Under the pieces are notes generated by a model, which was not told where the DNA came from, ran no database searches, and saw only the letters and a list, made by a program, of their open reading frames with translations. Both the position numbers and the translations under genes were made by a program. A stretch of DNA of 64,000 nucleotides from Amycolatopsis balhimycina FH 1894 (GTDB taxonomy: Bacteria; Actinomycetota; Actinomycetes; Mycobacteriales; Pseudonocardiaceae): positions 4,038,867 through 4,102,866 of the forward strand of contig NZ_KB913037.1 in assembly GCF_000384295.1 (NCBI RefSeq). Direction: 5' to 3'. Positions 20,195-61,320 of the stretch are shown piece after piece; within the stretch, counting starts at the first letter, position 1, and every line of letters starts with the position of its first letter.

Positions 20195-20390
20195 GACCTG
20201 CTGTGGACCTTGGGGAGCTTATTACAACACAAAACCCTAGTTAGAAGCCCTGGAGGCCCTGCTCCGGAAGCTGCCAGACCCCACCAAGCCGACTCCGCTG
20301 CCCGTCGACCGCTTCAAGCCACGGCAGGCACGCCGACTCGACGCCAACCACGTTCAGGAACTCATCGTCGGCTACCAGGCTGGAGCGACG

Positions 20391-20642
20391 GTGTATGAGC
20401 TGGGTGCCCGGTTCGGCATCGACCGGCGGACGGTGAGCGCCGTCCTCCGTCGGCACGGCGTGCCGACGCGTCGCCGCAGCCTCCCCATCGATCAGGTCGA
20501 CACTGCCATCCACCTCTACGCCCTCGGCTGGTCACTCGCACGAGTCGGCGAACACTTGGGCGTCGATCCGACCACCGTCCTGAACTGCCTTCGCAGACGT
20601 GGCGTCCGTACTCGCGACGCACACGGACGACCTCGGTCTTGA
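20391..20642 (+). CDS. Double-HTH protein, copy 1 (broken N-terminus)
   Basis: 84 codons encoding two helix-turn-helix units: [20 protein letters not shown] then [20 protein letters not shown], ending GRPRS. It resembles the DNA-binding part of Hin/resolvase-type proteins but has no recombinase catalytic domain. DNA homology to copy 4 (45215-45673) extends upstream to 20198, but that part has a 1-nt deletion (CCTTGGGG for CCTTAGGGG) and an amber codon at 20238 where copy 4 has CAG. Only the segment from the GTG at 20391 can be read, if it is translated at all. No DUF2637-like gene follows. Confidence 0.6.
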
Positions 20643-20721
20643 CGTACTGGGATTTCTCCGGTGCACCGTCAGACGGCGGTACGTCGAATCGATCCCACGG
20701 AGCTCACTACGCTGACACCTC

Positions 20722-21093
20722 ATGGCAAGGGCTCCGAAGTTCAGCACCCGGATGACCGGTCGATGGCGGATCGTGGCGATGAGTGGCTGGGACCGCGACG
20801 CGATCGACCTGGTCGAGCCGGGATACGTCGAGTTCGCCCGGAACGGGACCGGCCAGTTCGGTTTCATCGCCGTCCACGGTCGGCTGGACTGCCGCCCGGT
20901 CGAGCGGGACGGCCGCCTCGGCGTGGAGTTCACGTGGGAAGGTTCCGACGAGGGTGATCAGGTCAGCGGACGCGGCTGGGCGATCCTGGTCGACGACGAC
21001 ACGATCGAGGGCCATCTGTTCTTCCACCTGGGCGACGACTCGAGTTTCCGGGCGAAGCCGTTCACCGATGCCGACGAACTGGACGGACCGTGA
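20722..21093 (+). CDS. Conserved hypothetical protein of the TOTE-type locus
   Basis: 123 residues: beta-rich, acidic, with GRWRIVAMSGWDRDAIDLV, a repeated FIAVHGRLDCRP / VEFTWEGSDEGDQVSGRG pattern and GHLFFHLGDDSSF at the C-terminus. I recognise it as a conserved actinobacterial protein of unknown function (single small domain). Its TGA overlaps the GTG of the next gene (GTGA), so the two are translationally coupled and form one operon with the primase-helicase gene. Confidence 0.8.
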   Translation: MARAPKFSTRMTGRWRIVAMSGWDRDAIDLVEPGYVEFARNGTGQFGFIAVHGRLDCRPVERDGRLGVEFTWEGSDEGDQVSGRGWAILVDDDTIEGHLFFHLGDDSSFRAKPFTDADELDGP

Positions 21094-22256
21094 GCGAATA
21101 CCAGTACTACGAGTTCGTCGCGATCGACCGGCCACTGGACGACGGTGAACAAGCTGCGGTCCGGTCGCTGTCCACCCGGGCACGGATCTCTTCGACCAGC
21201 TTCGTGAACGAGTACCACTGGGGCGACTTCAAGGGTGACCCTCGCCGTCTGATGGAGCGCCACTACGACGCGCACCTGTACGTCGCCAGCTGGGGCACCC
21301 ACCGGGTGATGCTTCGCCTGCCGTGCGATCTGCTCGATCCCGACGTCGTCGAGGACTACTGCATCGGTGACGAGGTGAGCGCCTGGGTCATGGACGAGTT
21401 CATCGTGCTCGACATCAGCAGCGAGGACCACGCCGGTGAGTTCGACTTCGACTACGACCCCGAGAACCTGCTGTCGACGATCGTCGGAGTTCGCGCCGAA
21501 CTCGCCGCCGGTGATCTCCGGCCGCTCTATCTCGCCTGGCTGGCGGCCTATGGTGCCTGGGAGCGCGATGAAGACGTTTTCGATCGTGATGCTGACGACG
21601 ATCTCGAACCACCTGTTCCGCCCGGGCTGGGCACGCTCACGGCCGCGCAGCGGGCGCTGGCCGACTTCCTGCACCTCGACGACGATTTGATCGCGATCGC
21701 GGCTCAGGCTTCTCCACCACTGGGCAAGACGGCCGATAGCCCTGCTGACCTCACCGTTTGGGCAGCTCGCCTGCCGGTCACCGAGAAGGATCGGCTCTTG
21801 GCGCGGGTAATGCAGGGTGAGGCGGCGCGGGTGCAGATGGAGTTGCTGCGTCGTTTCCACGGCGATAGCGCTCCGATCATCCCCGTCCCAGCCCGCCGGA
21901 CCGTGGCCGACCTGCTCGACAACGCGGCGCGGCGACGAGCCGACCGTGAGCGTCGGCTGGCCGCCGAGCGCGCTGAAGACGAGGTACGCCGGGAACAGGC
22001 GCGCCTGCAGGCCCGCGGACGACGACTCGACACACTGGCCGCCGAGGAAGACGCCGCGTGGTCGCGCGTCGAGGCGATGATCGCCACCAGGAAACCCGCC
22101 GAGTACGACGCCGCCGTCACCCTGCTCAGCGATCTGCAGGCGCTGGCCGAACGCGACGGCCACTATGACACGTTCACCGCGCGCATGATCGCGCTGCGGC
22201 ACACGCACGGACGCAAACCCAGCCTCATCGAGCGCCTCGACCGGGTCTCCCTCTGA
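21090..22256 (+). CDS. Conserved hypothetical protein with coiled coil (TOTE-type locus)
   Basis: 388 residues. The N-terminal domain starts with YQYYEFVAIDRPLDD, then ARISSTSFVNEYHWGDFKG, and has an acidic centre (DVFDRDADDDLEPP). From about residue 265 to 330 there is a long charged helix rich in Arg/Glu (NAARRRADRERRLAAERAE) likely to form a coiled coil. The function is unknown. It is coupled by a 4-bp overlap to the upstream small gene, and the primase-helicase gene begins 23 nt downstream, so a role in that conflict system is plausible. Confidence 0.8.
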   Translation: MSEYQYYEFVAIDRPLDDGEQAAVRSLSTRARISSTSFVNEYHWGDFKGDPRRLMERHYDAHLYVASWGTHRVMLRLPCDLLDPDVVEDYCIGDEVSAWVMDEFIVLDISSEDHAGEFDFDYDPENLLSTIVGVRAELAAGDLRPLYLAWLAAYGAWERDEDVFDRDADDDLEPPVPPGLGTLTAAQRALADFLHLDDDLIAIAAQASPPLGKTADSPADLTVWAARLPVTEKDRLLARVMQGEAARVQMELLRRFHGDSAPIIPVPARRTVADLLDNAARRRADRERRLAAERAEDEVRREQARLQARGRRLDTLAAEEDAAWSRVEAMIATRKPAEYDAAVTLLSDLQALAERDGHYDTFTARMIALRHTHGRKPSLIERLDRVSL

Positions 22257-22279
22257 CCGTCCCGTCTACGGTGGGATCC

Positions 22280-22927
22280 GTGGACGACGATCTCCAGTCA
22301 GCGCAGGTCGCGGAGCTCGCGGAGGAACTCGCGCAGCTCCGCGCCTTGACAACGCGGTTGCGTGCGGAGAACGCGCGGCTGTTACGACTGCTGGAGCTGA
22401 CACCGAAACAAGCGGCTCCGCCCGGCCCGGTACAGACCGGCTTCTTCGAGGCGCACCCCGGCCCGGTCGACCGGCGATCGGCCCCGGAGGTGAAGGTCGA
22501 TTTCTTCGCTGCCTTGTTCGCCGCGCGCACCGACATCTACGCCACACGATGGGAGAACGCGCGAACAGGCCAGGCGGGTAGGCTGCCAGCGGTGCGCGGC
22601 GGCTGGCGCAGGGGTGTGCGGCACGAGGACCGCGACTATTTGCCGCTGAGCAAGGACGTGCTGCGCACACATCTGCCCGGTGACGTGCATGTCGGGCTGT
22701 ATCCGCTGTTGGACGGCGACCTGTGCTGGTGGCTGGCGGCCGACTTCGACGGCCCGATGGCGATGCTGGATTCCCTGGCCTACCTGAAGGCCGCCAGGGC
22801 ATGGTCGGTGCCAGCAGCGTTGGAAGTCTCGCGCTCGGGAGTGGGCGCCCATGTGTGGGTGTTCTTCACCGCACCCACGCCCGCGGAAACGGAATTTGTC
22901 AAGGTGGGTGAGACCAGTGGGTGTTAG
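22280..22927 (+). pseudogene. TOTE-type primase-helicase, 5' fragment (interrupted by IS3 element)
   Basis: The first about 200 residues of a TOTE conflict-system protein. A short coiled coil (LAEELAQLRALTTRLRAE) leads into an archaeo-eukaryotic primase-like domain with WWLAADFDGPMAM (catalytic D-x-D) and SRSGVGAHVWVFF (conserved H). The native frame ends at TPAET near 22892, where the insertion element begins; the remaining codons to the stop at 22927 belong to the element. The rest of the gene resumes at 24474. The GTG at 22280 is preferred over GTG 22271. Confidence 0.85.
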
Positions 22928-23934
22928 GCGGCTTCGGTTTTGGTCTCCTGGCTGGTGTCGTCGGTGGGTCGGTTGATCCAGACGGTGTCGGGGAGATCGA
23001 GCACCTTCGGCGCCGTGGTGATGCCACCGAACCGGTGCGGGTGCCTGGCCCGGGCTTCGGTGAGCACGGCGCGCCGGTCGGCGGCTTTGGCGGTTGCCAG
23101 GCCGAAGTGGACGTCGGCGGGGGTGTGCAGGCCGATGCCGGTGTGTCGATGTTCGTGGTTGTACCACTGGGCGAACTCGTCCATGAATTTCCTTGCCTCC
23201 GACAGTGACCCGAAGCGTTCGGGGAATTCCGGACCGTATTTCAAGGTCTTGAACAGTGATTCCGAGTACGGGTTGTCGTTGGACACCCGAGGCCGCGAGT
23301 GTGACCGTGTGACCTCGAGGTCGGCGAGCAAGACGGCGACAGTTTTGCTGGTCATCGACGTGCCCCGGTCGGCGTGCACGACCTGCGGGACGCCGTGGAC
23401 GGTGAAGATCTGTTCCATCAGTTCTTTCGCCAGGACACCGGATTCGTGGGCGTGGACATGGACGCCGACGATGAACCGGGAGTAGATATCGATCATCACG
23501 TACGCGTCGAAGTAGGTGCCTTTCACCGGGCCCGCCAGCTTGGTGATGTCCCACGAATACACCTGACGCGGTGCGGTCGCGACCAGTTCCGGACAGGCCT
23601 TCGCTGGGTGACGCGCCAGCCGGCGGCGTTCCTTGACCTGCTTGTTCTCCGCCAGCACCCGGTACATCGTGGACACCGAGCACACGTAGACGCCCTCGTC
23701 GAGCAGCTGGGCATAGATCTGCAACGGCGCCAGGTCCACAAATCGTTCGCTGGTGAGCACCTGGAGTATCCGCAGGCGTTCGGAAACGGTCAGTTTGTTG
23801 ACCGGTTCCGGCGCCGGATGCGCCATGACCGCCGGCGTGGCCGCGGCGGCGGTCTTGCCGTGCCGGATCGCCGTTGAGCGCGCCAGCCCGGTCAGCCAGG
23901 CGGCTTGCCTCGTGGGCACACCATCGGCGGTCAT
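22924..23934 (-). CDS. IS3 family transposase OrfB
   Basis: 336 residues with a DDE integrase core: YSWDITKLAG (first D), VVHADRGTSMTS (second D) and NDNPYSESLFKTLKY (catalytic E). The C-terminus has WYNHEHRHTGIGLHTPADV, typical of IS3-group OrfB. It appears intact. The frame remains open upstream of the ATG (LTHAYAS) to the end of orfA, consistent with expression by frameshifting from orfA, which ends 17 nt upstream. Confidence 0.92.
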   Translation of the reverse strand: MTADGVPTRQAAWLTGLARSTAIRHGKTAAAATPAVMAHPAPEPVNKLTVSERLRILQVLTSERFVDLAPLQIYAQLLDEGVYVCSVSTMYRVLAENKQVKERRRLARHPAKACPELVATAPRQVYSWDITKLAGPVKGTYFDAYVMIDIYSRFIVGVHVHAHESGVLAKELMEQIFTVHGVPQVVHADRGTSMTSKTVAVLLADLEVTRSHSRPRVSNDNPYSESLFKTLKYGPEFPERFGSLSEARKFMDEFAQWYNHEHRHTGIGLHTPADVHFGLATAKAADRRAVLTEARARHPHRFGGITTAPKVLDLPDTVWINRPTDDTSQETKTEAA

Positions 23935-23951
23935 GGACGCGTAGGCGTGGG

Positions 23952-24389
23952 TCAGCGCTTCTTGCGCTTCTCGTCGGAATCCGCTCTCTCGGAGAGACCT
24001 TCCAAGAGAGCGTGCGCTTTTCCCATGATGTCCAGGGCCGTCTCGGTGGTGTTCAGCCGTTTGCTCAAACGGGCGTTCTCCCGCGTGAGCCGCGCGATCT
24101 CAGCCTGCTCCGCGGACAGTCTGCCGACCTTCTCGCCGGGCTTTTTGCCCGCCAGCACGCCGGCATCGCGCTGCTTGCGCCACTCGCTGATCAACGACGA
24201 GTACAGGCCTTCCCGCCGCAGGTATCCGCCGCCGTCGCCCTGCTCACACGCCGCCTCGTAGGCGTCCAGATGGGCGAGCTTCTCCGACGCGGTGAACGTG
24301 CGTCGCCGTGGCCCGTCGCTGCGCGGGTGCTGGGAATCCATCCGCTCATTGTCGCCCTCGACTACCGGGGACATGGTCTTGCGGGTCAT
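23952..24389 (-). CDS. IS3 family transposase OrfA
   Basis: Up to 145 residues with an N-terminal HTH (RTFTASEKLAHLDAYEAA, then YLRREGLYSSLISEWRKQRD) and a leucine-zipper-like coiled coil (LTRENARLSKRLNTTE). This is standard OrfA of the IS3 family. The start may be further in, for example at the Met of MDSQHPRSDGP. It ends in the basic DEKRKKR just before orfB. Confidence 0.88.
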   Translation of the reverse strand: MTRKTMSPVVEGDNERMDSQHPRSDGPRRRTFTASEKLAHLDAYEAACEQGDGGGYLRREGLYSSLISEWRKQRDAGVLAGKKPGEKVGRLSAEQAEIARLTRENARLSKRLNTTETALDIMGKAHALLEGLSERADSDEKRKKR

Positions 24390-24473
24390 GTCAGTCGATC
24401 CGTATCTCGCCCTGCATCAGGCCGGGTTGCTGTGAACCAGTGGACTCAACTCACCCTGACACGCAGGGAACGG

Positions 24474-26271
24474 CTCGCCGACTTGGCACAGCCCTCTTAC
24501 GTGAAGCGATGGCGGTGCGTGGCCGCATGGACCTGGCCAGCTATGATCGACTGTTCCCGTCGCAGGACGTGCTGCCCGCGGGCGGCGTCGGGAACCTGAT
24601 CGCCGCACCTTTGCACGGCAAGGCCCGCCAGGACGGCGCGACGGTATTCCTCGACCTGGCCACGATGGAACCAGACGATGACCAATGGACGTACCTGTCC
24701 TCGCTCGGCCGAATGAGCCCTGCCGAGGTTAATCGGGTCGCGCGCCGCGCCGGCGGAGTCACCGTCGGAGCCAGCATCGACAAGATCGGCGCCGCAGTCT
24801 CGACTCGGATCCGTACCACCGCACCCCCATCGTGCACGCCCGGCTTGGCTCGGGAATCCGTCTGGAATCAGGCGAGTTGACCCCGGCGTTGCACGCGACG
24901 CTGAAGCACGCGGCGTCGATGACCAACCCACTGTTCTACGAGCGCCAACGACTCCGAATGTCCACATGGGACACGCCGAGGTTCCTACGCAGCTACGAAA
25001 CTCTCGACGGCGGGCTCGTCCTGCCCCGGGGGCTGCACGACACGGTGGCCTCGCTGGTCGAGCAGGCGGGCAGCCGCCTTGAGGTGATCGACGAGCAGCA
25101 GGCCGGCGAGACGCGGGAGTTCACATTCGCCGCTACGCTGACCCGGCAGCAGCAAGACGCCATAGACGATCTACGCGACCATGATCTCGGCGTGCTGGTC
25201 GCGCCGCCGGGCGCGGGCAAGACCGTGGTGGCCTGCGCGGTCATGGCTACCCACGCGACCTCCACGCTCGTGCTGGTCGACCGCAAGACTCTGGCCGACC
25301 AGTGGCGAACACGCATCAGCGAAATGCTGGGCGTCAAAGCCGGCCAACTCGGCGGTGGCCGCCGCAAAACCCGCGGCGTGATCGATGTCGTTATGCTGCA
25401 AACCCTGGCTCGCAAGACCGACATCGAGGAGCTCACCAGCGGCTACGGGCTGATCGTCGTCGACGAGTGCCACCACATCCCCGCCGCCGCGTTCGAGCAC
25501 GCCGTCAAGCAGATCCCGGCCCGCCGCTGGCTCGGACTCACCGCCACCCCATACCGACGCGACAAGCTCGACGACTTGATCACCCTCCAGCTGGGCCCAA
25601 TCCGGCACACCATCACTCACTCCACCCGGCCCAGTGTGGACTCGACACCCCAACTCGAGTTGGACACGACCGCGCACCGTCCGGTGCCGGCGCTCCACGT
25701 GCACGACACCGCCTACCGCTATGCCGGTGACGCCGACCCGACCAAGCCCGGTGGGATGGCGGCCATCTACCGCGATCTCGTCGCCGACGACGCCCGCCTC
25801 ACCCAGGTCGTCGACGACGTGATCGCCGCGCTGAAACGGGGTCGGCACTGCCTGCTGCTCACCCAGTGGACCACCCACGTCGAACGGTTCGCCGACGAAC
25901 TCCGGCAACGCTCGCTCGACCCGATCGTGCTGCGCGGCGGCATGAGCGCGACCGCCCGCCGCGACGCTCTCGCCCGCCTCCAACCCGCGAACGACGTACC
26001 GCTGCTGGTCGTCGCCACCGGACCATTCGCCGGCGAAGGATTCGACTGCCCTGTCCTGGACACGCTCTTCCTCGCCGCACCGATCGCGTTCAAAGGACGC
26101 CTCGTCCAATACGCAGGCCGCATCCTCCGCGCTCACCCCGACAAAGCCACCGCAGAAGTCCACGACTACCACGACATCAACACCGGCGTCCCGGCCTCGT
26201 CACTGGCCAAACGCGCGCCCGGCTACATCAGCCTCGGCTTCCCCGACCCCCGCCGAGCAGCAACACGTTGA
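24474..26271 (+). pseudogene. TOTE-type primase-helicase, 3' fragment with frameshift
   Basis: The gene resumes after the IS3 element: ARRLGTALLREAMAVRG and LASYDRLFPSQD finish the primase part. At a run of five C near 24823-24827 the frame shifts from TTAPPS to [10 protein letters not shown]. The rest, open from GTG 24832 to 26271 (479 codons), is a complete superfamily 2 helicase: [12 protein letters not shown] (Walker A), VVDECHH (motif II), [11 protein letters not shown] (motif III) and QYAGRILR (motif VI). The helicase part could still be made alone, but the gene as a whole is broken twice. Confidence 0.85.
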
Positions 26272-27203: not shown

Positions 27204-27218
27204 TAGTATGAGCCGGTG
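27204..27218 (+). promoter_or_regulatory. Probable leaderless promoter of the AbiE pair
   Basis: An AT-rich patch unusual for this sequence precedes abiEi. A TAGTAT -10-like hexamer (27204-27209) lies 6 nt before the GTG start, which would place transcription initiation at the start codon itself. AAAACT (about 27150) and AGTTTT (27194-27199) form a loose inverted repeat that could be an operator; AbiEi antitoxins of known systems repress their own promoter. No good -35 is visible. Confidence 0.4.
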
Positions 27219-27812
27219 ACCGTTGATCGACGTGACCTCCGTCGGCGGCTCTTCGAGCTCGCTGCCCAGCAGGGTGGCTATTTTACGGCCGCGCAGGCGA
27301 AGTCGCTCGGCTACTCCCACCAGGCGCAGGCCCATCACGTTGGAGCTGATAACTGGTGGCGCGTTGATCGCGGCCTGTTCCGCCTCGTTGAGTGGGTTCC
27401 GGGCGTCCATGATGAACTCGCTCGCTGGACCCTGTGGTCACGAGGACGCGCGATCGTGTCACACGAGTCAGCCATGGCCGTCCATGACATCGGCGAGTTC
27501 GAATCACGGTATATCCATCTGACAGTTCCACCCGGGTTCACCATGCGTGACGAAGCCGTAGCGCTTCACTACGCAGAGCTTCCCACCGATGACGTCTCCG
27601 CACGCTCGGGATACCGAGTGACCACTCCACTGCGCACGCTCATCGATATCGCCGCGAACGCGGCCGATGAGGATCAGCTTGCCCGCGCCATCGCCGACGC
27701 GCGGCGCGCCGGCCTCGTCACCACTCGCCGTCTCCGCTCCCGCGCCGAGACCCTTGACCCCCGCGCCGCGCTCTACATCGAACGCGCGATCCAGCAAGCG
27801 GAGACACAGTGA
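27216..27812 (+). CDS. AbiEi-type antitoxin (type IV toxin-antitoxin)
   Basis: 198 residues. The N-terminal winged helix reads LRRRLFELAAQQGGYFTAAQAKSLGYSH-like in two parts, with the AbiEi-typical WWRVDRGLFRLVEWV. The C-terminal half has SHESAMAVHDIGE, IHLTVPPGF and TPLRTLIDIAANAADEDQL. AbiEi proteins bind promoter DNA and antagonise AbiEii. The stop overlaps the toxin start. The pair lies exactly between HTH copies 2 and 3. Confidence 0.88.
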   Translation: MTVDRRDLRRRLFELAAQQGGYFTAAQAKSLGYSHQAQAHHVGADNWWRVDRGLFRLVEWVPGVHDELARWTLWSRGRAIVSHESAMAVHDIGEFESRYIHLTVPPGFTMRDEAVALHYAELPTDDVSARSGYRVTTPLRTLIDIAANAADEDQLARAIADARRAGLVTTRRLRSRAETLDPRAALYIERAIQQAETQ

Positions 27813-28666
27813 CCTACCAATCGGCGCCGGCGCTCCGCACCGCATTGGAGCGCCGACTATCAGCACGATCCGCCGAGACCGGAGTCAGCCTGGACCGGCT
27901 ACGCCGGCGGGTGATGTTCGAACGCATCATCGCCCGCATACAAGCGGCAGAGCCGGGGCAATGGGTACTCAAAGGTGGTATGGCACTTGAGGTTCGCCTG
28001 CGCGACGACGCCCGGCTGACCAAGGACGTCGATCTCGGCCTGCGCGATGACGTCAACAGCGCGCCAGACCTCCACGAGCGACTCATCGACATCCTCGCCG
28101 TCGACCTCGACCATGACTACTTCATCTTCGCTGCCGGCCCGCCGGAACGGCTACGCGACGACAGCGGCGGAGTCCCTACCTGGCGGGCCAAAGTCAGCGC
28201 GCAACTGGCCGACAAGCCTTTCGGAGGCATCCAGCTCGACGTGTCCCCCAGGACTCATGAACTTCATGCCACCGACAGGCTCGCCATACCCAACTCCTTG
28301 GCGTTCGCCGGGATCCCGACAGTTGAGGTCGAAGCGGTCGACATCCACCGACACGCCGCGGAGAAGTTCCACGGCATGCTCCGCGACTTCGGGGAACGCG
28401 AGAACTCGCGGGTCCGCGACCTCGTCGACCTCGCCATTCTGGTCGAACACGACCTGCTCGAACCCAAGCAAACGGCAGCCGCGGTCCGATCCGTATGGCT
28501 CGAACGCAACAACACCGCACCACCGGACAACCTCCCGCGGCTGCCAGAGTCGTGGCGGGACCGCTACCAGCGACTTGCCGCCAGCCACGGCATAGAAATT
28601 CCGCCGTACGTCGGAGCGGTGGCCACCGTGACCCAGCTATGGCTCACCATGTTCCCCCGCGAGTAG
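27809..28666 (+). CDS. AbiEii-type nucleotidyltransferase toxin
   Basis: 285 residues of the nucleotidyltransferase AbiEii/AbiGii toxin family. The key motif is WVLKGGMALEVRL followed by LTKDVDLGLRDD, where GG(x)AL...D-x-D is the nucleotidyltransferase signature. Later conserved parts are VEAVDIHRHAAEKFHGMLRD and RVRDLVDLAILVEHDLL. Relatives modify tRNA 3' ends or otherwise cause reversible growth arrest and abort phage infection. It is coupled by a 4-bp overlap to abiEi. Confidence 0.9.
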   Translation: MTYQSAPALRTALERRLSARSAETGVSLDRLRRRVMFERIIARIQAAEPGQWVLKGGMALEVRLRDDARLTKDVDLGLRDDVNSAPDLHERLIDILAVDLDHDYFIFAAGPPERLRDDSGGVPTWRAKVSAQLADKPFGGIQLDVSPRTHELHATDRLAIPNSLAFAGIPTVEVEAVDIHRHAAEKFHGMLRDFGERENSRVRDLVDLAILVEHDLLEPKQTAAAVRSVWLERNNTAPPDNLPRLPESWRDRYQRLAASHGIEIPPYVGAVATVTQLWLTMFPRE

Positions 28667-30072: not shown

Positions 30073-30224
30073 GTGCTTACCTGGTTTCCGCTTGCGGGCT
30101 GCAGAACCGGCGCAACCTGTCCTTCGCCGACGCGCTTTGCCGGATCCTCCGGGGGCCACGCGGGATAAGGGCTCCGGCCCTCTGGAGCGCCCGGCACCAA
30201 CCGGACCGGGCGCACATCGGTGGT

Positions 30225-30807: not shown

Positions 30808-30863
30808 TGTGGAAGTACTGATCGAAGGGATCCTTTCGTGGTGCCGCTCGTGGGCGGCGTGGT

Positions 30864-31310: not shown

Positions 31311-31504
31311 GTCGGTGCTCCCGTCTCCGGCCGCTGATTTGCCGGCCGGACTGGGGCCGAGGACGGCGCAGGTTCGATCACTTGCGCACGAAATGCTCTC
31401 GGTCAACACCCAGCGTACGCGACGACTGCGCTGAGTGTGTGAAGAGTGTGACGCATCCGGACGACGAGCCGCCGGCGGCGGCGGGAAGGGCCGGCCGCGG
31501 TCCG

Positions 31505-32656: not shown

Positions 32657-32682
32657 GTGGGCCCCTTTTGCTAGACCACAGT

Positions 32683-34770: not shown

Positions 34771-34777
34771 GTTCCTC

Positions 34778-44722: not shown

Positions 44723-44737
44723 GCTTCAATGATAGAG

Positions 44738-51306: not shown

Positions 51307-52220
51307 CCCGGGCTGCAGCTATATCAGGTTCGGACGCGGCCACCGTCGTTAAGGCCGTCACCGTGATCATGGGCGTCGTCGGCCTCACGTTCCTATTCGG
51401 CTTCGGCAACGTCCTCAACCTCGCCCTCCGCCTCGGCGTACCCATCTGGGTCGCTCCGCTCGTCGCACCCGCTGTAGACCTCTCCATCCTCGGGCTTCTG
51501 CTTGGAACTCGACACCTCGCGCTCACCGGCGCCTCTGCCGAGGTGCTGGCGCCGGCCCGTCGGCTGCTGATCTTCGCGAGCGTGGTCACCTTGGCGTTGA
51601 ACGTGGCGGACCCGCTCTTTGCCGGCGAGTACGGTAAGGCGGCGTTTGATGCCGTCGGACCGCTTCTCTTGATCGGCTGGGCCGAGGTTGGACCTAGCTT
51701 CTTGCAGGCGATCAGTGCAGCCAATCCGCCGGAAACTGCCATCATTCACAGAGGTATCGGTGTCAAGCAGCAAAGTGTGCAAACCGAGGAGCTGGTGGTC
51801 AGCGATTCGGGACGATTCGAGGCTGTGAGCAAAGGATCGGCCCTGTCAGAGCTCAGTCGACGGGCCTTTCTCGACCGTCCGCTGGAAGTGCTCCTTGAGC
51901 AGGCCCGACAGGAAGATGCGGCTCATCGCGTTGCCCACCAGAGGCCAATATCGGCGGATACTCTGCGTGTTCGGATGAGGATTGGCGCAACACCGGCTCG
52001 ACGACTTGTCAAGATCATTCGTGCTGAGTTCGATGGGACCGGTGCTCCCGATTTGGTGGACGAGAGGCTACGCGTGAGGTGCAGAACGCCGATGCAACCC
52101 TGGTGGCATGACGTTGGCCCAATTGGTCGTGGATGCGGGTCCGCGCCTTCTGTAGCAGCCTCTCATACGGCGTCTGGCCGGCCAGGCCGCCGTGTGGTCT
52201 TGTTGAGATCACGTCACTGA
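51303..52220 (+). CDS. DUF2637-like membrane protein, cassette copy 5 (tail replaced)
   Basis: 305 residues. The hydrophobic core (about 15-135) is nearly identical to the other copies: [36 protein letters not shown] and [19 protein letters not shown]. The C-terminal box [20 protein letters not shown] is present near residues 215-235. After about residue 255 the frame runs antisense through a transposase remnant ([16 protein letters not shown] onward), so the last about 50 residues are not native. Confidence 0.75.
52090..52212 (-). pseudogene. Transposase C-terminal remnant (IS3/IS481 type)
   Basis: On the minus strand about 40 codons read [20 protein letters not shown] and [10 protein letters not shown], the typical C-terminal end of DDE transposases of the IS3/IS481 group (RPH-x-x-L...TP-x-E). 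No other part of the element is nearby. It overlaps the tail of the DUF2637-like gene. Confidence 0.6.
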
Positions 52221-53566: not shown

Positions 53567-54019
53567 GTGGGCCTAACGTGGCACAACCCGAACTCTTTGC
53601 TCTTGGTCGACGGACCAGAGCTCACCATCGAGCCACCCACTCCCCGTCACTCGGCATCTACCAACAGTAACCGTCGCTTTCGACTCGACAATGACCAGAC
53701 CCAGCAGCTCATCGCTGCCTACCAGGCCGGCTCGACCGTGTACCAACTCGCCGCCCAGTTCGACATCGAACGCCGCACCGTCAGCGCCATCCTCCATCGC
53801 CACAACGTGCCCATGCGACGCCGCGGCTTGACCGACAACCAGATCGATGACGCCGAGCGCCTCTACCAGCAAGGCTGGTCACTCGCCCGCATCGGCAACC
53901 GCATGGACGTCACCGCCGACACCGTCCGGGCGCGGCTGCTCGAACGCGGCGTCGCCATGCGCGACACCCAGGGACGTCCCCGCACCGACGCGTCCTCCGA
54001 GGCCGGTGAGCTTCGATGA
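53567..54019 (+). CDS. Double-HTH protein, copy 6
   Basis: 150 residues. A divergent N-terminus leads to [20 protein letters not shown], a first HTH ([20 protein letters not shown]) and a second HTH ([20 protein letters not shown]), ending [11 protein letters not shown]. It is the most diverged complete copy and shares the R-x-G-N-R-M ... TADTVR variant with copy 4. The GTG at 53567 is the upstream-most start; there is no clear ribosome site. The stop overlaps the DUF2637-like gene by 4 bp. Confidence 0.75.
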
Positions 54020-54795
54020 CCAGGTCTACCGTCGAGCCGTCGACCCGACCAGGTCCGGACACCGGTCCCGTCGTGCAGGCCGTCACCGTGATCATGGGCA
54101 CCGTCGTCGCCCTCACCTTCCTCTTCGGCTTCGGCGACGTCCTCAACCTTGCCCTCCGGCTTGGCGTCCCCGCCTGGGTCGCACCACTGGTCGCACCCGC
54201 CGTCGACCTGTCCATCCTCGGCCTCCTATTGGGCAGACGACACCTCGCCCTCCACGACGCCACACCAGACCAACTCCGACCAGCCCGCCGACTACTCACC
54301 TTCGCCAGCCTCACCACCCTCGCCCTCAACACCGCCGACCCACTCGTCACCGGCGCCTACGGCAAAGCGGCCTTCGACGCCGTCGGCCCACTCCTACTTA
54401 TCGGCTGGGCCGAAGTCGGACCCGGACTGCTACAGGCCATCAGCACCATCAGCCCTCAACCGAAGGAAACAACCCACGCACACTCCAACGGAACCGATGC
54501 CAACACCGACGCCGCCACCACGAACACCGTCGCGATGAGGCCGAGCGAAGGGCCGGCCAGCGATACCACCAGCCGACCAGTAGCCATCACGCCCAACGGC
54601 GACCTGCTTGACCGCGCTCGGCACGAAGACACCCGCCACTGGACCATCCACCAGCGGCCCATCTCGGCCGAGACGCTCCGCAAGAACCTGCGCATCAGCG
54701 CGACGCGCTCACGGATGCTCGTCTCGATCATCCGAGCCGAACGGTCCGACGACCGAAACGCCGCTGTGGTGGCTGGTCAATCAATGTCGGAATAA
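54016..54795 (+). CDS. DUF2637-like membrane protein, cassette copy 6
   Basis: 259 residues with the same hydrophobic core ([59 protein letters not shown]). A Thr/Asn-rich linker and the C-terminal box [20 protein letters not shown] follow. About four membrane helices are predicted at residues 20-135, with the HTH-like tail in the cytoplasm. It is coupled by ATGA overlap to HTH copy 6. It converges on a small minus-strand gene with an 19-bp overlap. Confidence 0.78.
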
Positions 54796-54983
54796 CCGGA
54801 TGCCATACCGGGTGTCACGCTGTTGTCCCGGCGGCGGCTCGTCGCCCATTCGGCAATCAAGTTGGCCAACGCACTGACCGCCTGCTCGTACTGCTCGGCA
54901 GTCATCGGCACGGTTTCAATCTGGTCGACCGCGTAGTCCCGCCGACGGCGCTCGACCCGAGAATCGTCACTCACGCTGTCCAT
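54777..54983 (-). CDS. Small hypothetical protein
   Basis: 68 residues: DSVSDDSRVERRRRDYAVDQ, then the helical MTAEQYEQAVSALANLIAEW and a short tail. The Y-x-x-AV-x-AL-x-x-LI-x-x-W helix is typical of small actinobacterial mobile-element proteins of unknown function. The start (ATG 54983, with 54986 or GTG 54977 as options) lacks a clear ribosome site. Confidence 0.5.
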   Translation of the reverse strand: MDSVSDDSRVERRRRDYAVDQIETVPMTAEQYEQAVSALANLIAEWATSRRRDNSVTPGMASGYSDID

Positions 54984-55309
54984 CATCAGCGGCCACCACA
55001 GCATCGAGCGGCATTGGCAGATCACTCGTCTGGGCGACTTGCCGAGATCACGGCCGGATCGGTGACTAACTGACTTGGCCAGACGTCTTCCGGCCTGATC
55101 GGCACCTCGTCTCGTTGACCTGCGGGTGCGTCGCGGCGAGCAGGCCTCTGCCCCTGCGCGACAACCGCCGTAGCGCACCGACTGCCGGCCGCTACGCGCA
55201 CCCAAGATTGTTCTCCAGCGGGGCACGCACTGCGCCACCGGCGGCGCTGAAGACGCCCAACCCCGGTGCCAGAGTCGCACCGGCACACCGGGCTGGTCGC
55301 ACCGCGCCC
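54984..55309. other. Region between the small gene and the AIPR gene
   Basis: About 325 nt. One minus-strand frame ends with a protein-like stretch (QRDEVPIRPEDVWPSQLVTD) that stops at 55022 but has no credible start. It may be the tail of a lost gene. Nothing else is seen. Confidence 0.35.
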
Positions 55310-57073
55310 TTAGCGACCGGTGCTGTCGGTCAGCTCCTTACGGACCAGCTCCGCAAATCGCTCGTTGCGCACCGCCTCCCCCAGCGGCACTCCGGCGGCC
55401 CGTTCGGCGTCGATGGCCCGCTGGATCACCGGCAGCAGCTCGCGGACGACTAGCTTCTCCGCAGCCTCCGTATTCCAGATTACCTTCAGAATTTGGTCGC
55501 ACTCTTTCTGCGCGACTTTACCATTGGGAGGCAGTTTCAGCGAACCGACCAGCTTCTGTCGAATCATCGCCATCAGGTGATATTGGGCGGGCCGGTAGCC
55601 GCGATTGATACGGTGGTTCCGGATCATCCACTCCAATCGGTACCAGGTTGCCGCAGCCGTGTAGTACAGGATCGATGGCTGGCCGGTGACGAACAGTTCG
55701 GTACCGCGTGCCTTGATCAGCTCCTGATAGTGGCCTACACGGGACGGTTCGTTTAGAAACATCGCCAGGTACGCGCGGCTGAGTTGGGCCCGGCTGATGA
55801 CCCGGGTCTTCTCCACGTCCTTGCGTTCACTGTACTGTTTCGCCCGACGCTCATAGAACAACTGGCGCGGCTTGTCCCAGCCAAGGGTGAAAAAATCCTC
55901 CAGTTCCTTGTGGAAGTCCTCCCGTGCGGCTAGGTCCTCGTCGCTGACCGGGGTCTGCTGGTTGGTTGCGGCCACAATACCCTGGATCACGTCCTCGTCC
56001 ACCGAGTGAACGATGTGGACGCTGACGAAAACTTGGTCGGTGAGTTGATCACGCTCGTGGAACAGCACGTGACAGGTCTGGCAGCCATTCACGATCTGAA
56101 AATCGTCCAACACGAAATCGTCGCCGACGCGGTCCAGTCTCCGGGTCACGATAGTGATGCCGTTGTTCATCACAGCGAACCTTTGCCGCTTGTCTCGATC
56201 CCGCAGGCTGTCCCGAATACCGCTGTTGACCCTGTTGTAGCCCTGGAAGGCACGTACGTTGCTCTCAAACAGGTTCTCACGCAGTTTGCCCGAGCCGTCG
56301 TCCAATATGGTGCAGACCAACTCCGGCGCGGAAATCAGCCTCACAAACGACTGTTCAACGCCGGGGCCCGCTGGCACCGCGAACTGTTTCGGTACCGGCA
56401 GGGTGACCCGGACGGTGCTAGTCGCCTGCTGGTACAACGTGCGCAGCTCCCGCCAGTTCACGCAGCGCACGTCGGTCGTATCGAATCGGTTGAGCTTGTC
56501 CAAATGTTTCTCGGCCGATCGCGCCTTACGGTTGACCATATCCGAGATTTGATCGCCGGTGGTCACATAACGGACGTGCAGTTGCGGCAGTTGGCCGGCC
56601 AGCCGGGCCGAGTTTTCGAACACGGCGTCCAGGCAGTCACGCAAGCTCGCCACGTCGGTCGACACATCGTACGGGATCCTGCCGGCCCCACACAGGTGAC
56701 CGAGATTCTCTGCCAGGTCCGAGATCACCTTGGTTTCGAACTTGCCGCTGGTCTTGGCCTGGATGATCACTACCTGCACTTGCGGCCGCTTGCGTTTCAT
56801 CGCCGCCTGCACTTCCGTCGGGTCCCGGTACAGGTCCCCATCGATCAGGACGGCGTACGCGTCGATGCCGAGATCGTTACCGCCCCCGGTGCGGTACACG
56901 TCTGGGTTGAATGGATCGTTATAATACGAACTGAGCACGCAATAAGCAGCAAATGCCTCGAACGCCTCGGACTCCGGCAATTCGGTCAAGTCCTGGTCCT
57001 GCTGGAAGCCCTTGACCAGGCTCTCGATCACCTTCTCCACGGCGGGTTCACTCCTTGCACGGGCATCAGTCAC
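55310..57073 (-). CDS. AIPR family protein with N-terminal nuclease-like domain
   Basis: 587 residues. The N-terminal 120 residues carry a Mrr/PD-(D/E)XK-like core: GGNDLGIDAY (Asp71) and VVIIQAKTS (Gln105-x-Lys107). The central part is the AIPR (abortive infection phage resistance) domain, with NVRAFQGYNRVNSGI (about 270), FAVMNNGITIVTRRL and DDFQIVNGCQTCHVLF, followed by VATNQQTPVS-like AATNQQTPVSDEDL. AIPR proteins occur in phage-defence loci. The start overlaps the HerA-like gene by 8 bp. It is third in the operon and likely the effector. Confidence 0.88.
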   Translation of the reverse strand: MTDARARSEPAVEKVIESLVKGFQQDQDLTELPESEAFEAFAAYCVLSSYYNDPFNPDVYRTGGGNDLGIDAYAVLIDGDLYRDPTEVQAAMKRKRPQVQVVIIQAKTSGKFETKVISDLAENLGHLCGAGRIPYDVSTDVASLRDCLDAVFENSARLAGQLPQLHVRYVTTGDQISDMVNRKARSAEKHLDKLNRFDTTDVRCVNWRELRTLYQQATSTVRVTLPVPKQFAVPAGPGVEQSFVRLISAPELVCTILDDGSGKLRENLFESNVRAFQGYNRVNSGIRDSLRDRDKRQRFAVMNNGITIVTRRLDRVGDDFVLDDFQIVNGCQTCHVLFHERDQLTDQVFVSVHIVHSVDEDVIQGIVAATNQQTPVSDEDLAAREDFHKELEDFFTLGWDKPRQLFYERRAKQYSERKDVEKTRVISRAQLSRAYLAMFLNEPSRVGHYQELIKARGTELFVTGQPSILYYTAAATWYRLEWMIRNHRINRGYRPAQYHLMAMIRQKLVGSLKLPPNGKVAQKECDQILKVIWNTEAAEKLVVRELLPVIQRAIDAERAAGVPLGEAVRNERFAELVRKELTDSTGR

Positions 57074-60000
57074 GCCGAGCGCGGACGATGACTTCTTCGA
57101 CGGTCAACGGGCTCGACGGGTGGTAGCTCAGGCAGATTGGGGTGCGGATCTTCTGGAACGCCAAACCCTCGGCGACGGCGTAGAACTGGCCGGCGCCCAG
57201 CCGGGAGATGTCCGGCACCGAACTGGATTTCGCGGCTGCCATCTCCTTGGCAGCGGCGATCTGCGGCGGACTGTTGAGGAAGCCGAAGAATTGCGTAGCA
57301 GCGTTGCCGGAAATCCGATTGTGGATGCCGCGCGGCGCCTGTGTGGCGAACACCAGGCCGAGTCCGTACTTGCGGGCCTGCGAGGCCAACGCAAGGGTGC
57401 TGTACGTGCTTGCGGTAAGCGAACCGGACGGGGCGATGGTCTGCGCCTCGTCCATGACCAGCAGCCCGCCGAGTGGCCGGTCTCCGGCGGGATGCTGCTT
57501 GATCCAGGCGAACAGGGCCATTTGGAGTTGGTTGACGAAGCTCTGCCGTTGTTCCTCGGCAGGCAAGCCGATCAGGCTGATCACCGAGATCCGGGCGCGT
57601 TTGCCAGCCGCCGGGGTGAGCAGCACGCCCGGGTCCGCCGGCTCGCCAACGCCGCCGAACAACGGATCGTTGATCATAGCCGCGCGCAGTGTTTGCGCCA
57701 TGTCCGCGGCCATTTCGTGCGCTTTGGCCAGTGGTGTTACGTCATCGGGCAGGTCACCGAGCAGGTCCAGGAAATAGCTGAGCTCGCCGCCAGCCTCGTG
57801 CGCGAAGTACTGCAACGCCTGGTTGAGAACCGCGCGGGACCGCTCGGCCTTCGCGGTTGCGCCGTCGGCGCGGGCGCGTGGTGCGAGCGCGGCGACAGCA
57901 GTGTCGATGGCCTGGCGGAACTCGTCCGGGTCGTCGGCGACCGCGGCGAAGTCGGGGAGCGGGCGAAACGTCAACGGCCGGCCTGTTTCCCGACGGGGCG
58001 TCCAGACCACGACGTCGGTGTTGCGAAGGTAGTCGTCGGCGCGGACCGAGTCGTCGGGTCCCCAAGCGTCCGGTGGCTGCGGCCATGAGTCGCCGAGCCG
58101 GGCCAGGTCGTTGTTGGGATCGAGCACGATGGCAGACACGCCACGCAGCGCACATTCCTCGACCAGCCGGCGGATCAACACCGTCTTACCCGACCCGGAA
58201 CCGGCAAAAATCGCCGTGTGCTTTCGCAACGATTCCAACGCGATCGTCACCGCCGCGCCGGTGTCGATCCGGTCGCCGACGTGCAGCGTCACCGGGTCCA
58301 CCGTCACCCCACCTGATGTCGCAGTGGCAAGGTTGGTGGTGTCCGGGTCGGCCATCGGCCAGGAGACATCGGACGGTCGTGGCGCAGGGGTCGGTTCGGG
58401 TTCGGGACCCGGTGGCTCCGCGTCATCCGGCGGGTCGCCGAACACCGCGCGCAGCAAGGCGGTGTGGCTGGCCGGGCGGCGACTGAGCAACCATGCGTTG
58501 AACTGAGCCGGTGGCTGGGTCGCAGCTAGTCGCTCCAATGCCACGAACGTGCGGAGGTCTGTCTCCAATGTCTCCTTTGGCAGTCGGATCACGACTCCGC
58601 CCGCCGTCTCGAATTCCTGGACCTTCTGTCGGGTCTTGCGACCGTTCGACCAATCGCCGGTGCGCAATAGGTAGACTTTACGTTTCGGCGCCGCCGGGTC
58701 CAGGCCGGTGGTACTCAGGACTCGGTCAATCCGGTTGATCACCGCTCGCCCATCACTCCACGCGATCGCCCGAAACGACCAATAAATCTTGTCCTCGGTG
58801 CTCTCGTCCAAGGTCCGTCGCAGTTCGGCGTGCAGGGCCGGATTGCCGGCGGCCATCGTCTCCGTAAGCACCTCGTACTGGAAGCGTTCTTCGCCCTGTT
58901 CGGCGACCCACCGATTCAAGGCGGGACACAAGAGGTCCGGTACGCGCTGATCCTCCTGGTACGGGTCGAGCGCCTTGTCGACCTCCGCGATGAGGTTGAC
59001 ATCGTTCACCAAGGCGGCCAGCTGTCGGTCTATCTCGGTGAGCGCGCCATGATCGACCGGAACGTTTGCGGGCCCCGGTCGCGGCGCGGCGGCGTCAGCG
59101 CGGCTCGACTCGGCGAGGCTGCTCAGTTCGATGACCTCATTTGCATCCAAGCACGCCTGAATGTGGGTGTCGACCCGGCGAATGAGGCCGCGAGCGGTGA
59201 ACCGAACCGCGTCGGCGAACGCCTCCAAACTTATTGGCCAACTCGGATAGGGCGGAACGAAGCCAGCCTTTTCAAATTTGAGCGCGAACCGTCTTTCAAT
59301 AAGCGCCTGCCCTACCGCCGCCGTCGGGATCGTATCCAATTGTTCGGCACGGCGGAATCGTTGCTCGACAGAGCCTGGCGCAAAGTCCCGGATGCCCTGC
59401 CAGACCAAGTCCATACAGGCGACCAGAACCAGTGACCGGCGGGTGGCTTCGCGCAGCTCCATGAGCCCGCTGCCGACATCCTCGAACAACCGCCGCCTAG
59501 GCAATCCTATCGGGTCCGATATAGCGTCGGAAGTAGTCTCAGATGTAGCGCTGTCGGTTCCTCGCTCCGACTGCTTGATCAGCGTATCGATTTGATCCAG
59601 CGCGATCACACTTGGTCCAGTGAGCGCGATCAACTTGAACAGTTCACTGACCATTTCGTGCGAAGTCCTAGCGTCGGCACGAAGGCCCCATTCGGCTCGT
59701 TCGCCAACTACCGATTCGCTTTCCGAGGAAAGGTAGGCGATGCCGACCTCCCTGGTTGTCACCGAATCGCTGGCGAGCAGCGCCAAGGCTCGCAGAGTGT
59801 GCCCGCATTCGAATGCGAGCCGCCGATCAACCTGATCCAGCGCCTCTACCATGCCATCAAGCCCGGCCCGGGTTGGTTTGTCCAGTCCCACGAGTTGCCG
59901 ATGCAAGGGTTCGGGCAAGTTGAGTTTCCGGGACAGTTCCCGCCGCAGGATGACGCCCTGTTCCAAACCGTCAGTGCCGAACTGGAGCAGCCCGCTGAGC

Positions 60001-60323
60001 ACGTCGAGCACAACCTTCTGCCAGAAAGATCGTTCGTGCCGTAGTTCAAGGGCGAAGAAGTAGCCGTCCGCCGCGCTGACTCGCTTCCGTACGGTGGCGA
60101 CGAGGTGGGTCTTGCCCGAACCGGGCCGTCCGGTGACGACCACGCCGATCGGGCTCTCCGCGTCACTAGCCTTGGCGTCAGCGAAGCCAGCCATGACCGT
60201 CCGCAACGCCCGATCGTTAAGGCCGTCGACGTGCGCCTCGGGCTCCGTCCACACGCTTTCCCTGGTGGGCGCCCAGTTGGTCTTGGCTAGTTCCGTCAGT
60301 GCGTCGCGTTCGGCCGCCTTCAT
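57066..60323 (-). CDS. Dual-ATPase protein: AAA domain plus HerA/DUF87-like translocase
   Basis: 1085 residues. The N-terminal ATPase has VVVTGRPGSGKTHL (P-loop at 65-72) and VIALDQIDTLI as Walker B. A middle region has a helical segment. The C-terminal half is HerA/VirB4-like: AIFAGSGSGKTVLIRRL (about 703-719), VLDPNNDLARLGDSW, then GGLLVMDEAQTIAPSG (about 948-962) and LVFATQAPRGIHNRI. HerA-type motors are partners of nucleases in DNA repair and several anti-phage systems. It overlaps both neighbours (ATGA upstream, 8 bp downstream), so the three proteins are probably made in stoichiometry. Confidence 0.88.
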   Translation of the reverse strand: MKAAERDALTELAKTNWAPTRESVWTEPEAHVDGLNDRALRTVMAGFADAKASDAESPIGVVVTGRPGSGKTHLVATVRKRVSAADGYFFALELRHERSFWQKVVLDVLSGLLQFGTDGLEQGVILRRELSRKLNLPEPLHRQLVGLDKPTRAGLDGMVEALDQVDRRLAFECGHTLRALALLASDSVTTREVGIAYLSSESESVVGERAEWGLRADARTSHEMVSELFKLIALTGPSVIALDQIDTLIKQSERGTDSATSETTSDAISDPIGLPRRRLFEDVGSGLMELREATRRSLVLVACMDLVWQGIRDFAPGSVEQRFRRAEQLDTIPTAAVGQALIERRFALKFEKAGFVPPYPSWPISLEAFADAVRFTARGLIRRVDTHIQACLDANEVIELSSLAESSRADAAAPRPGPANVPVDHGALTEIDRQLAALVNDVNLIAEVDKALDPYQEDQRVPDLLCPALNRWVAEQGEERFQYEVLTETMAAGNPALHAELRRTLDESTEDKIYWSFRAIAWSDGRAVINRIDRVLSTTGLDPAAPKRKVYLLRTGDWSNGRKTRQKVQEFETAGGVVIRLPKETLETDLRTFVALERLAATQPPAQFNAWLLSRRPASHTALLRAVFGDPPDDAEPPGPEPEPTPAPRPSDVSWPMADPDTTNLATATSGGVTVDPVTLHVGDRIDTGAAVTIALESLRKHTAIFAGSGSGKTVLIRRLVEECALRGVSAIVLDPNNDLARLGDSWPQPPDAWGPDDSVRADDYLRNTDVVVWTPRRETGRPLTFRPLPDFAAVADDPDEFRQAIDTAVAALAPRARADGATAKAERSRAVLNQALQYFAHEAGGELSYFLDLLGDLPDDVTPLAKAHEMAADMAQTLRAAMINDPLFGGVGEPADPGVLLTPAAGKRARISVISLIGLPAEEQRQSFVNQLQMALFAWIKQHPAGDRPLGGLLVMDEAQTIAPSGSLTASTYSTLALASQARKYGLGLVFATQAPRGIHNRISGNAATQFFGFLNSPPQIAAAKEMAAAKSSSVPDISRLGAGQFYAVAEGLAFQKIRTPICLSYHPSSPLTVEEVIVRARRD

Positions 60324-60958
60324 GACTGTTCGATGGACAGCAGGTGCACGTCCTCTCCGCCGGTGCGCAGCGCTGCGGCCCGGTCGGCCGGGGTCAGCGT
60401 TTTCTGGTTGAACTCAGGATTGAGCCGCACTGACGGTTCCAGGGCTAGCCGCAGAAGGGCGGCGTCCAGGTCGGAACGCGCCACGTCGGGGAAAGCGCGC
60501 CGCAGCCGAGTCAGGCTGACACCGGCACCAGGGGCGGTAGCCAATTCGGTGTACGCGGCGCAGATTCGATCCGTGATGTCAACGGCCGGGGCTGTCGACT
60601 CGTCGTCGAGGACAAAGATGTCCGCGATACGCAGGTCGGATCGTGCCATGAAAACGGCGAACCGGCGGGTCAGCGAGTATTGCAGCCGTGTGGCTTTTGG
60701 AGCGCCCTTCGGGGTGGGGCTGCCCAGTTCGTCACTGCAGCGCCGCCAACCCTCGTCGGTCAGTTCGTGCACCCATGCCCTGTATCGACCGGTCTGCCGC
60801 GCCTTGATGTAGCCCAACTCGACCAGATGTTCCCTCTCCTCCTTCTTGATCTTGATGCCCAGTTCGTCCGCGAGGTTGGCATTCGACGCCTCGCGGATCA
60901 GGGTCATCAGCGCGAGCAGCGCAGATCGTTCCGGCAGTGTCAGGTGCGGGTCCGCCAT
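60320..60958 (-). CDS. Winged-helix protein, first gene of the HerA-AIPR operon
   Basis: 212 residues. The N-terminal half looks like a MarR/winged-helix domain: PERSALLALMTLIREASNAN, LADELGIKIKKEEREHLVEL and KARQTGRYRAWVHELTDEGW. The C-terminal half has a second wHTH-like part (LTRLRRAFPDVARSDLDAAL) and ends TPADRAAALRTGGEDVH. It could recruit the ATPase to DNA or repress the operon. The ATG at 60958 has no strong ribosome site; the stop overlaps the ATPase gene start. Confidence 0.8.
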   Translation of the reverse strand: MADPHLTLPERSALLALMTLIREASNANLADELGIKIKKEEREHLVELGYIKARQTGRYRAWVHELTDEGWRRCSDELGSPTPKGAPKATRLQYSLTRRFAVFMARSDLRIADIFVLDDESTAPAVDITDRICAAYTELATAPGAGVSLTRLRRAFPDVARSDLDAALLRLALEPSVRLNPEFNQKTLTPADRAAALRTGGEDVHLLSIEQS

Positions 60959-61179
60959 GGGTCCGAACGTACCTGGATACCGACATGACGGGGAGAGTCA
61001 TCGCCGGAATGACGCATTGATCCCGATGGGCCTTGACGCTGGGCATTAACACGAAAGGAGTAACCGCGACGGGGTCGGCGCACGAGCCAACGCCGGGGAG
61101 TACACCAATCCGGTCGGCGTTGTCCTTAGTCAAGACGGCCTCCCACGCTCCGGGGCCATGTGAGTGGAAGCTCCGTGGC

Positions 61180-61320
61180 GCCGCACCGTCCTCGGTTGGC
61201 TCACCCCCTTCACCGCGACGGCAAAGGAGGCACGGCCTCACCAACGACCAGAGTGACGACGCCGAGCACCCCTACCGCCTAGGCTGGTCACTCGCCCGCG
61301 TCGGCAACCGCTGGAGCATG
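61180..61320 (+). pseudogene. Double-HTH gene remnant, copy 7
   Basis: Within about 140 nt, one frame reads RRHGLTNDQSDDAEHPYRLG then WSLARVGNRWSM, clearly the second HTH of copy 6 ([32 protein letters not shown]). The first HTH survives only as a scrap (CGCCGCACCGTC near 61180). No start or stop of the gene remains. It has the same orientation as the other six copies and lies just beyond the wHTH-HerA-AIPR operon. Confidence 0.65.

Follow-up and report, generated by a model that had tools for sequence, protein, structure and literature searches.

Helix-turn-helix stubs in an Amycolatopsis defence island as probable leftovers of tandem insertions at tRNA-Ala(CGC) by a serine integrase that may split its own gene

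Why does one gene recur seven times, always in the same orientation, between the cargo blocks of a bacterial island? We analysed a 64-kb stretch of Amycolatopsis balhimycina FH 1894 (contig NZ_KB913037.1, positions 4,038,867 to 4,102,866 of the forward strand; hereafter the window), in which a gene of ~150 aa with two tandem helix-turn-helix (HTH) units lies between successive blocks of cargo. The original prediction for this DNA held that the HTH gene is a modular boundary and that homologous recombination between its copies excises and exchanges the cargo. Our data point to a different origin of the borders. Very probably, the island consists of tandem integrative elements at the 3' end of tRNA-Ala(CGC), in which genes joining a large serine recombinase (LSR) to the HTH segment (LSR-HTH) are split on integration and leave HTH stubs behind.

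The HTH copies and their borders at tRNA-Ala(CGC)

Direct-repeat search and alignments confirmed seven plus-strand copies (c1 to c7), of which six align over ~300 bp and c7 is a remnant of 79-139 bp. Any two copies are 67-84% identical at the DNA level, with longest exact runs of 9-39 bp, and so are, judging from their sequences, old paralogues. Long shared DNA had been reported for c4 and c5; the quoted 20-mer is exact in both, with one or two mismatches in c3 and c1 (chance expectation 0.02), but the copies overall are not near-identical. A search of the whole genome (10.86 Mb, E<=0.01) returned nine matches, namely the seven window copies and two distant, weak ones (34% and 37% identity). 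The HTH gene matches HTH_23 in Pfam, with further HTH models under the cut-off. One AlphaFold2 model of c4 (mean pLDDT 71.7, pTM 0.41) predicts two three-helix HTH units with moderate confidence, and a PDB fold search with it gave no match at E<=0.001; the predicted structure adds little.

A membrane-type gene, called so by eye, follows c4 (45670..46494, plus strand, overlapping the HTH stop), c5 (51303..52220, plus) and c6 (54016..54795, plus), and in each case overlaps the HTH copy. The c6 partner is DUF2637-like (E=0.0035, under the Pfam cut-off), the other two match nothing, and relatives of the c4 partner occur in 58 of 80 genomes of the genus. In plasmid and phage collections, the HTH query found one weak plasmid match (33%) and no phage match; on the circular Microbacterium plasmid NZ_CP012698.1 (L177), such a weak HTH relative adjoins a tyrosine integrase.

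The copies differ in how they begin. Two start at the attachment core, namely c1 (20203-20661, plus), a pseudogene with a G-run one base short that begins at GTGGACCTT, and the intact c4 (45215-45673, plus), which begins at GTGGACCTTAGGGG. The intact c6 (53567-54019, plus) has a second type of N-terminus and begins at GTGG, and the frameshifted c2 (~26593-27122, plus) has its likely start, GTGGATTC, at 26593. Thus, core-type starts occur at c1, c4, c6 and probably c2, giving several borders of the same type in one island, whereas the remaining three copies are without the core: c3 (28750-29277, plus) has a decayed start and is accompanied by the initial bases of a membrane-type partner, c5 (50916-51306, plus) is truncated at its 5' end, and c7 (61179-61317, plus) is the remnant. 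The view of the HTH gene as a modular boundary holds in that its copies mark module borders, but not all seven are intact borders.

HTH relatives were found at E<=1e-8 in 48 of the 80 genomes. The core, GTGGA..T..GGGG, opens 35 of 42 anchored copies (34 by pattern, including one GTTGA, and L036 by eye), and the DNA before it is either unrelated or shared class-wise among copies. A GTGGGCC start characterizes c6 and its relative in G028, and the core is absent from c3, c5, L035, L065 and, at the position examined, c2. A wider scan took in 45 named loci (Amycolatopsis, Prauserella, Saccharopolyspora, Nocardia and others), and 36 of them carried the core.

On the antisense strand, the 3' end of tRNA-Ala reads as this core. 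A tRNA scan of the window alone found none because tRNA-Ala(CGC) lies outside it; ARAGORN places the gene at 65293 in extended window coordinates and also finds it in G028 and G063. An Rfam search of the window gave no match. On the left, the tRNA-Ala(CGC) terminator (20142..20202), the host half of the attachment site, comprises ~60 bp near-identical to the DNA abutting tRNA-Ala(CGC) in L091, L082 and L079. Sites without insert were sought at 30 tRNA-Ala(CGC) loci, 16 of them readable in the printed orientation. In five genomes (G022, G064, G039, G025, G009) the tRNA is followed directly by the hairpin that precedes c1, in G077 and G040 by a hairpin of a second class, which precedes other HTH copies, and at the remaining readable loci, G000 included, by other sequence. 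Since the hairpin before c1 directly follows tRNA-Ala(CGC) at these empty sites, the island spans 20203..65292, its right end lying ~1.3 kb outside the window, and sits between the terminator and the 3' end of the same tRNA, as a tRNA-gene island does. The islands of G000 and G063 terminate at a complete tRNA-Ala(CGC), and a common end sequence meets a tRNA-Ala 3' fragment in G020 but an HTH gene in G073. A further hairpin, class C, considered as a possible right end of a tyrosine-integrase element, also resembles DNA beside tRNA-Ala(GGC) in G000 (L103).

Cross-strain comparison supported the proposed exchange of cargo at HTH borders, with junctions that coincide with HTH starts. G000 and G028 are 90.8% identical over 7.8 kb (53567..61311), beginning exactly at the GTG of c6, and their upstream DNA differs; likewise, G044 and G036 are 99.4% identical over 2106 bp from exactly the HTH GTG, after unrelated DNA. 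The far side of the HTH gene is modular as well, the order being HTH-cargo1-cargo2 in L059, HTH-cargo1-cargo3 in L060, HTH-cargo2 in G073 and HTH-cargo3 in L057. Same-strand HTH arrays with defence genes recur in further genomes of the genus. We conclude that the borders are site-specific attachment sites with the tRNA-Ala 3'-end core, not homologous-recombination repeats.

The orientation of the copies fits insertion at this tRNA. After removal of four overlapping duplicates from 86 rows, 82 HTH matches remained, and in 60 of these cases tRNA-Ala(CGC) is on the same contig. Of the 60, 34 from 23 genomes lie 3' of the tRNA at a distance of up to 200 kb, every one pointing to it; the same distance on the 5' side holds none. 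Among the other 48, 14 lie within 300 kb 3' of tRNA-Ala(GGC) or (TGC), 12 of them in the same sense. At three of the 45 loci of the wider scan (L161, L164, L175) a tRNA-Ala is in reach, each time on the side to which the HTH gene points.

A serine recombinase frame through the attachment core

Relatives of the island carry an LSR at the same borders. A 604-aa frame before an inner HTH copy of G073 is an LSR (Resolvase and Recombinase domains, with Zn_ribbon just under the cut-off), and an LSR relative or fragment also precedes an HTH start in G056. At the tRNA end, an LSR or a fragment of one is present in nine of 17 islands (G070, G015, G067, G078, G031, G062, G061, G054, G021). In G070, G015, G078, G067 and, as a 152-aa piece, in G054, the LSR frame crosses the core and reads its GTG as a sense codon; in these five islands the LSR open reading frames (ORFs) extend 29-357 codons past the core, beginning in antisense tRNA-Ala. 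When island ends were rejoined in silico, which was tried on five of eight listed islands, a continuous LSR-HTH ORF of 754 aa (G070), 737 aa (G015) or 762 aa (G078) resulted, since both ends have the shared GTG in frame.

Such fusions also exist naturally. Four are full length (P0045, P0048, P0121, P0124) and four partial (P0122, P0123, P0125, P0126; the zinc ribbon of P0123 is under the cut-off), and the full-length ones represent at least two LSR types. P0121 (L132, Amycolatopsis acididurans) contains Resolvase, Recombinase, zinc ribbon and HTH_23, all above cut-off, and P0124 comes from Haloechinothrix. By eye, the junction valine occupies the same place in all eight, and the N-terminus of c6 type is present in frame in the LSR P0002. 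P0045 and P0048 are the two HTH-fused proteins among 120 listed of 2170 LSR relatives; of the others listed, 10 are short, 13 are of other kinds and 95 end in a tail of antisense-tRNA type, recognized by the pattern V, 2-6 residues and [GR][FILV]E[PLR], a count that has no chance control. This suggests a large clade of putative tRNA-targeting serine recombinases without a stop of their own before the core, whose tails would be the antisense of several tRNA kinds.

The same arrangement is found at a second tRNA. At 7.42 Mb of the same genome (L178, C1:7417000-7433000), an HTH gene (34% identical) opens with VGAVEEF at GTGGGCGCAG after a hairpin, and ~10 kb away a decayed LSR frame (...DEYL followed by VGAAGFEPATARV) runs into antisense tRNA-Val(tac). 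The HTH start and the LSR frame have the core TTGGTGGGCGCAG in common. The tRNA-Val(tac) element is an independent case of the HTH/LSR arrangement.

Codon usage carries a corresponding trace. Among 51 non-redundant copies of 65 intact HTH genes, with expectations taken from the codon use of the gene, synonymous identity is 0.90 against 0.50 expected over the first eight codons, 0.85 against 0.74 over codons 9-15 (few columns), 0.97 against 0.56 over codons 16-20, and 0.53-0.61 against 0.40-0.49 from codon 21 on, where the median dN/dS is 0.30 (150 pairs). This pattern fits a putative attachment half-site overlying the coding sequence of a protein that appears to be under selection.

The most likely reading is that a serine integrase gene has its own attP inside it and is cut in two on integration, the HTH gene being its C-terminal part. 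The tRNA borders, empty sites, exact junctions, orientation, LSR position in relatives, frame continuity and natural fusions can all be read from the sequences themselves, and the following course of events would be compatible with them. The element would encode an LSR whose frame runs through its own attP into the tandem-HTH segment, often followed by the membrane-type gene, and the circular form would yield a single LSR-HTH protein as the integration form. Integration would cut the gene at the common GTG: the catalytic half would stay at the tRNA side and gain a tail read from the antisense tRNA strand, while the HTH half would move to the opposite end and form an ORF that opens with the attP half-site as its first codons. 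With each insertion at the same tRNA, one more HTH stub in the same orientation would come to lie between cargo blocks, so that c2, c3, c5 and c7 may each once have been an element end; with time, the LSR halves of the window island would have been lost, and the stubs and cargo would remain. A second element that enters a site already turned into attR might rely on relaxed half-site recognition. The severed HTH protein is a candidate directionality factor or repressor, or may have no role, and the split may lower or redirect excision.

With less assurance, we lean towards a broader proposal, in which a bacterial serine integrase splits its own gene at a core that is a sense codon within LSR-HTH, the split acts as a built-in direction switch, and the leftovers record insertions in arrays that grow into defence islands. 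As a switch, the whole protein would integrate, and the split protein would not excise or would do so differently.

Apart from the uncontrolled tail count, several observations weigh against the split-gene explanation. In the window, only c4 and c6 are open from GTG and five of the seven copies are decayed; its island contains no LSR, the weak matches falling at HTH starts and stemming from the ends of fusion queries, and we read it as a decayed array. Relatives of the three recombinase seeds are missing from six of the 17 islands (G000, G028, G063, G042, G008, G052). The junction of G067 is in frame but its HTH gene is frameshifted, and in G031 the LSR is broken upstream. Fusions located on chromosomes could be tandem junctions and not attP; a search of plasmid and phage collections with the fusion P0048 gave no match and hence no free circular form. 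Two of the 14 copies near tRNA-Ala(GGC/TGC) face the opposite way, a further one is found 5' of such a tRNA, and for 33 of the 82 matches no position close to one of the three tRNA-Ala genes could be established, partly owing to short contigs. Finally, in addition to the LSR, both G015 and G078 have a stretch resembling a tyrosine recombinase at 2-3 kb from the tRNA, and tyrosine integrases directly precede some HTH copies, ending just before the core (L042 12090-13355, L069 2225-3556, L137 8822-9771, L170 9752-9986), which places unrelated integrases at or next to one and the same tRNA border.

Could the tandem tRNA-targeted LSR elements be real and the HTH gene nevertheless a separate gene abutting attP, with a fortuitous open frame that never gives one protein? 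The 65 HTH copies intact from the start codon, with their median dN/dS of 0.30, are compatible with a free-standing protein, as is a membrane-type gene that overlaps the HTH stop. We consider this unlikely, as LSR and HTH lie in one frame in G070, G015, G078 and the tRNA-Val element, the eight natural fusions cover at least two LSR types, and most LSR relatives among those listed show, by pattern, no stop before the core. Much less probable still is the excision or exchange of cargo by homologous recombination between HTH repeats. It would account for cargo that differs between strains at HTH borders, but it is not supported by copies with 67-84% identity and a longest exact run of 39 bp; moreover, the junctions lie precisely where the GTG core begins and not within the repeats, and the tRNA, the empty sites and a recombinase account for them.

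We give hardly any credence to an integron-like cassette array with the hairpins before HTH genes as attC sites, although the modules are sharp, ORF-bounded and preceded by hairpins, and cargo modules are shuffled downstream of the HTH gene: the border recombinase is an LSR, and two hairpin classes, A and D, stand directly beside tRNA-Ala(CGC) at sites without insert. On the latter ground, an integron or a terminator-targeting intron was dropped as a candidate. Splitting of an LSR-HTH gene at tRNA-Ala(CGC) remains our preferred explanation of the borders.

Cargo of the island

The labels given earlier to the TOTE, AbiEi/AbiEii, XRE-ImmA and HerA-like/AIPR loci agreed with Pfam and PADLOC. Cargo 1 (20752..26271) comprises two unnamed genes, an AEP-TOTE primase and a ResIII helicase; in G073 and G020 this unit, at 87-92% identity, likewise comes after an HTH gene. 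The primase ORF is split by an rve-type insertion sequence (22924-24389) whose DNA is 94.9% identical at L064 5727-7309, and TOTE is uninterrupted in L050 12445-14850. The idea that insertion sequences made the HTH borders was rejected, since this one lies inside the primase gene and not at an HTH border. Cargo 2 (27216..28666, plus) is AbiEi/AbiEii. Downstream of c4, an XRE-ImmA protein (Peptidase_M78 and HTH_3; PADLOC RmrA models, E=1.3e-51) and a further gene occupy 47800..50039 (plus); this second gene matches nothing in profile searches. The gene at 52.2-53.3 kb, labelled PD-(D/E)XK-like in the original prediction, has no Pfam or PADLOC match. An AIPR/AbiU-like protein, a HerA-like ATPase and a small upstream protein are encoded at 55310..60958 (minus; Pfam, PADLOC), with a matching unit in G028. 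The right part of the island within the window (61465..64000) contains IstB and other genes (Pfam), and tRNA-Ala(CGC) corresponds to L031 2160-2233.

The expectation of defence cargo in every interval fails for the 16-kb c3-c4 block (29329..45122), which is not known defence by Pfam or PADLOC. Its genes include an alanine dehydrogenase, a fatty-acid desaturase, a CheB/histidine-kinase protein, HATPase/STAS proteins, a Dyp-type peroxidase and TetR, and of ten genes searched with PADLOC the kinase protein alone matches (candidate PDC-M43B, 5e-8; SduA, 0.003). As homologues of the block adjoin HTH copies in G075, G056 and G021, it may itself travel as cargo. In another set of strains (G003, G044, G036), the DNA that follows the HTH and membrane-type genes is shared (L036-L038, L053, L069), and G003 has an extra 3.5-kb module (STAND-like ATPase) that is absent from G044.

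Across the 17 islands, island genes are rich in defence models and the flanks are not. The comparison used genes of >=150 aa from sections of these islands and from chromosomal flanks, with HTH, membrane and LSR genes removed by motif, and sampled them at random: 110 out of 154 for the islands and 110 out of 126 for the flanks. In PADLOC, 165 models were matched by the island set and two by the flank set (E<=1e-15), figures that count models and not proteins. Many of the 25 island models shown are redundant, among them 15 type I methyltransferase models with two matching members each; Dnd, Hma, Pbe and AbiU models also occur in the island set.

Relation to known systems

The two tandem HTH units recall the bipartite HTH domains of Tc/mariner transposases and Pax proteins and the CRISPR-repeat-binding Cbp1 (fold search, NCBIfam); these matches are weak (best E 9e-3; TM <0.4 by query length) and give no sign of shared function. 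In phage systems with attP inside a repressor gene, integration alters the end of a regulatory protein; here, in contrast, the altered gene would be that of the recombinase itself.

Actinomycete integrative and conjugative elements lie mostly at tRNA 3' ends; in the accessible part of Ghinet 2011 (PMC3218068), 19 of 144 have serine recombinases, one group at tRNA-Leu, and serine integration into tRNA is called rare. Those elements are defined there by Rep and FtsK-type transfer genes, none of which scored above cut-off among the Pfam-scanned window genes (one sub-threshold FtsK match lies in the HerA-like protein). For tRNA 3' ends, described in that paper as a rare target of serine recombinases, the present analysis offers natural LSRs as candidates, and the HTH stub may serve as a landmark for dividing the defence-rich tRNA islands of Amycolatopsis and its relatives into individual insertions.

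The Dehalococcoides ssrA islands, as presented in the available text of PMC3146451, resemble the arrays in their serine recombinase, their tandem arrangement downstream of a small-RNA gene, and their integrase-less modules with common border repeats and varied cargo. They differ in having a tmRNA target, a CcrB-type recombinase and cargo that includes reductive dehalogenases, and that text mentions no split integrase or HTH stub.

The literature searched, with thin coverage of subscription journals and preprints, yielded no account of a self-splitting serine integrase. The nearest parallel is the suicidal (SSV-type) integrase, a tyrosine recombinase described as exclusive to archaea in the available portion of a 2021 review (PMC8371274). 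According to that portion, attP lies inside the integrase gene and integration leaves pieces at both ends of the element, as would be the case here; in our relatives, too, attP falls within the integrase frame by sequence alone. In the archaeal enzymes, the catalytic domain is in the severed C-part (PMC8371274), whereas the serine recombinase would keep its catalytic half, lose the tandem-HTH segment and gain an antisense-tRNA tail. Because the enzyme is a serine recombinase and not an archaeal tyrosine recombinase, LSR-HTH would work like a suicidal integrase by mechanism and is not a member of that family. If our proposal is true, the question whether the split sets the direction of a serine integrase becomes testable, and the self-splitting design known from archaea would have arisen in an unrelated enzyme family, the bacterial serine integrases.

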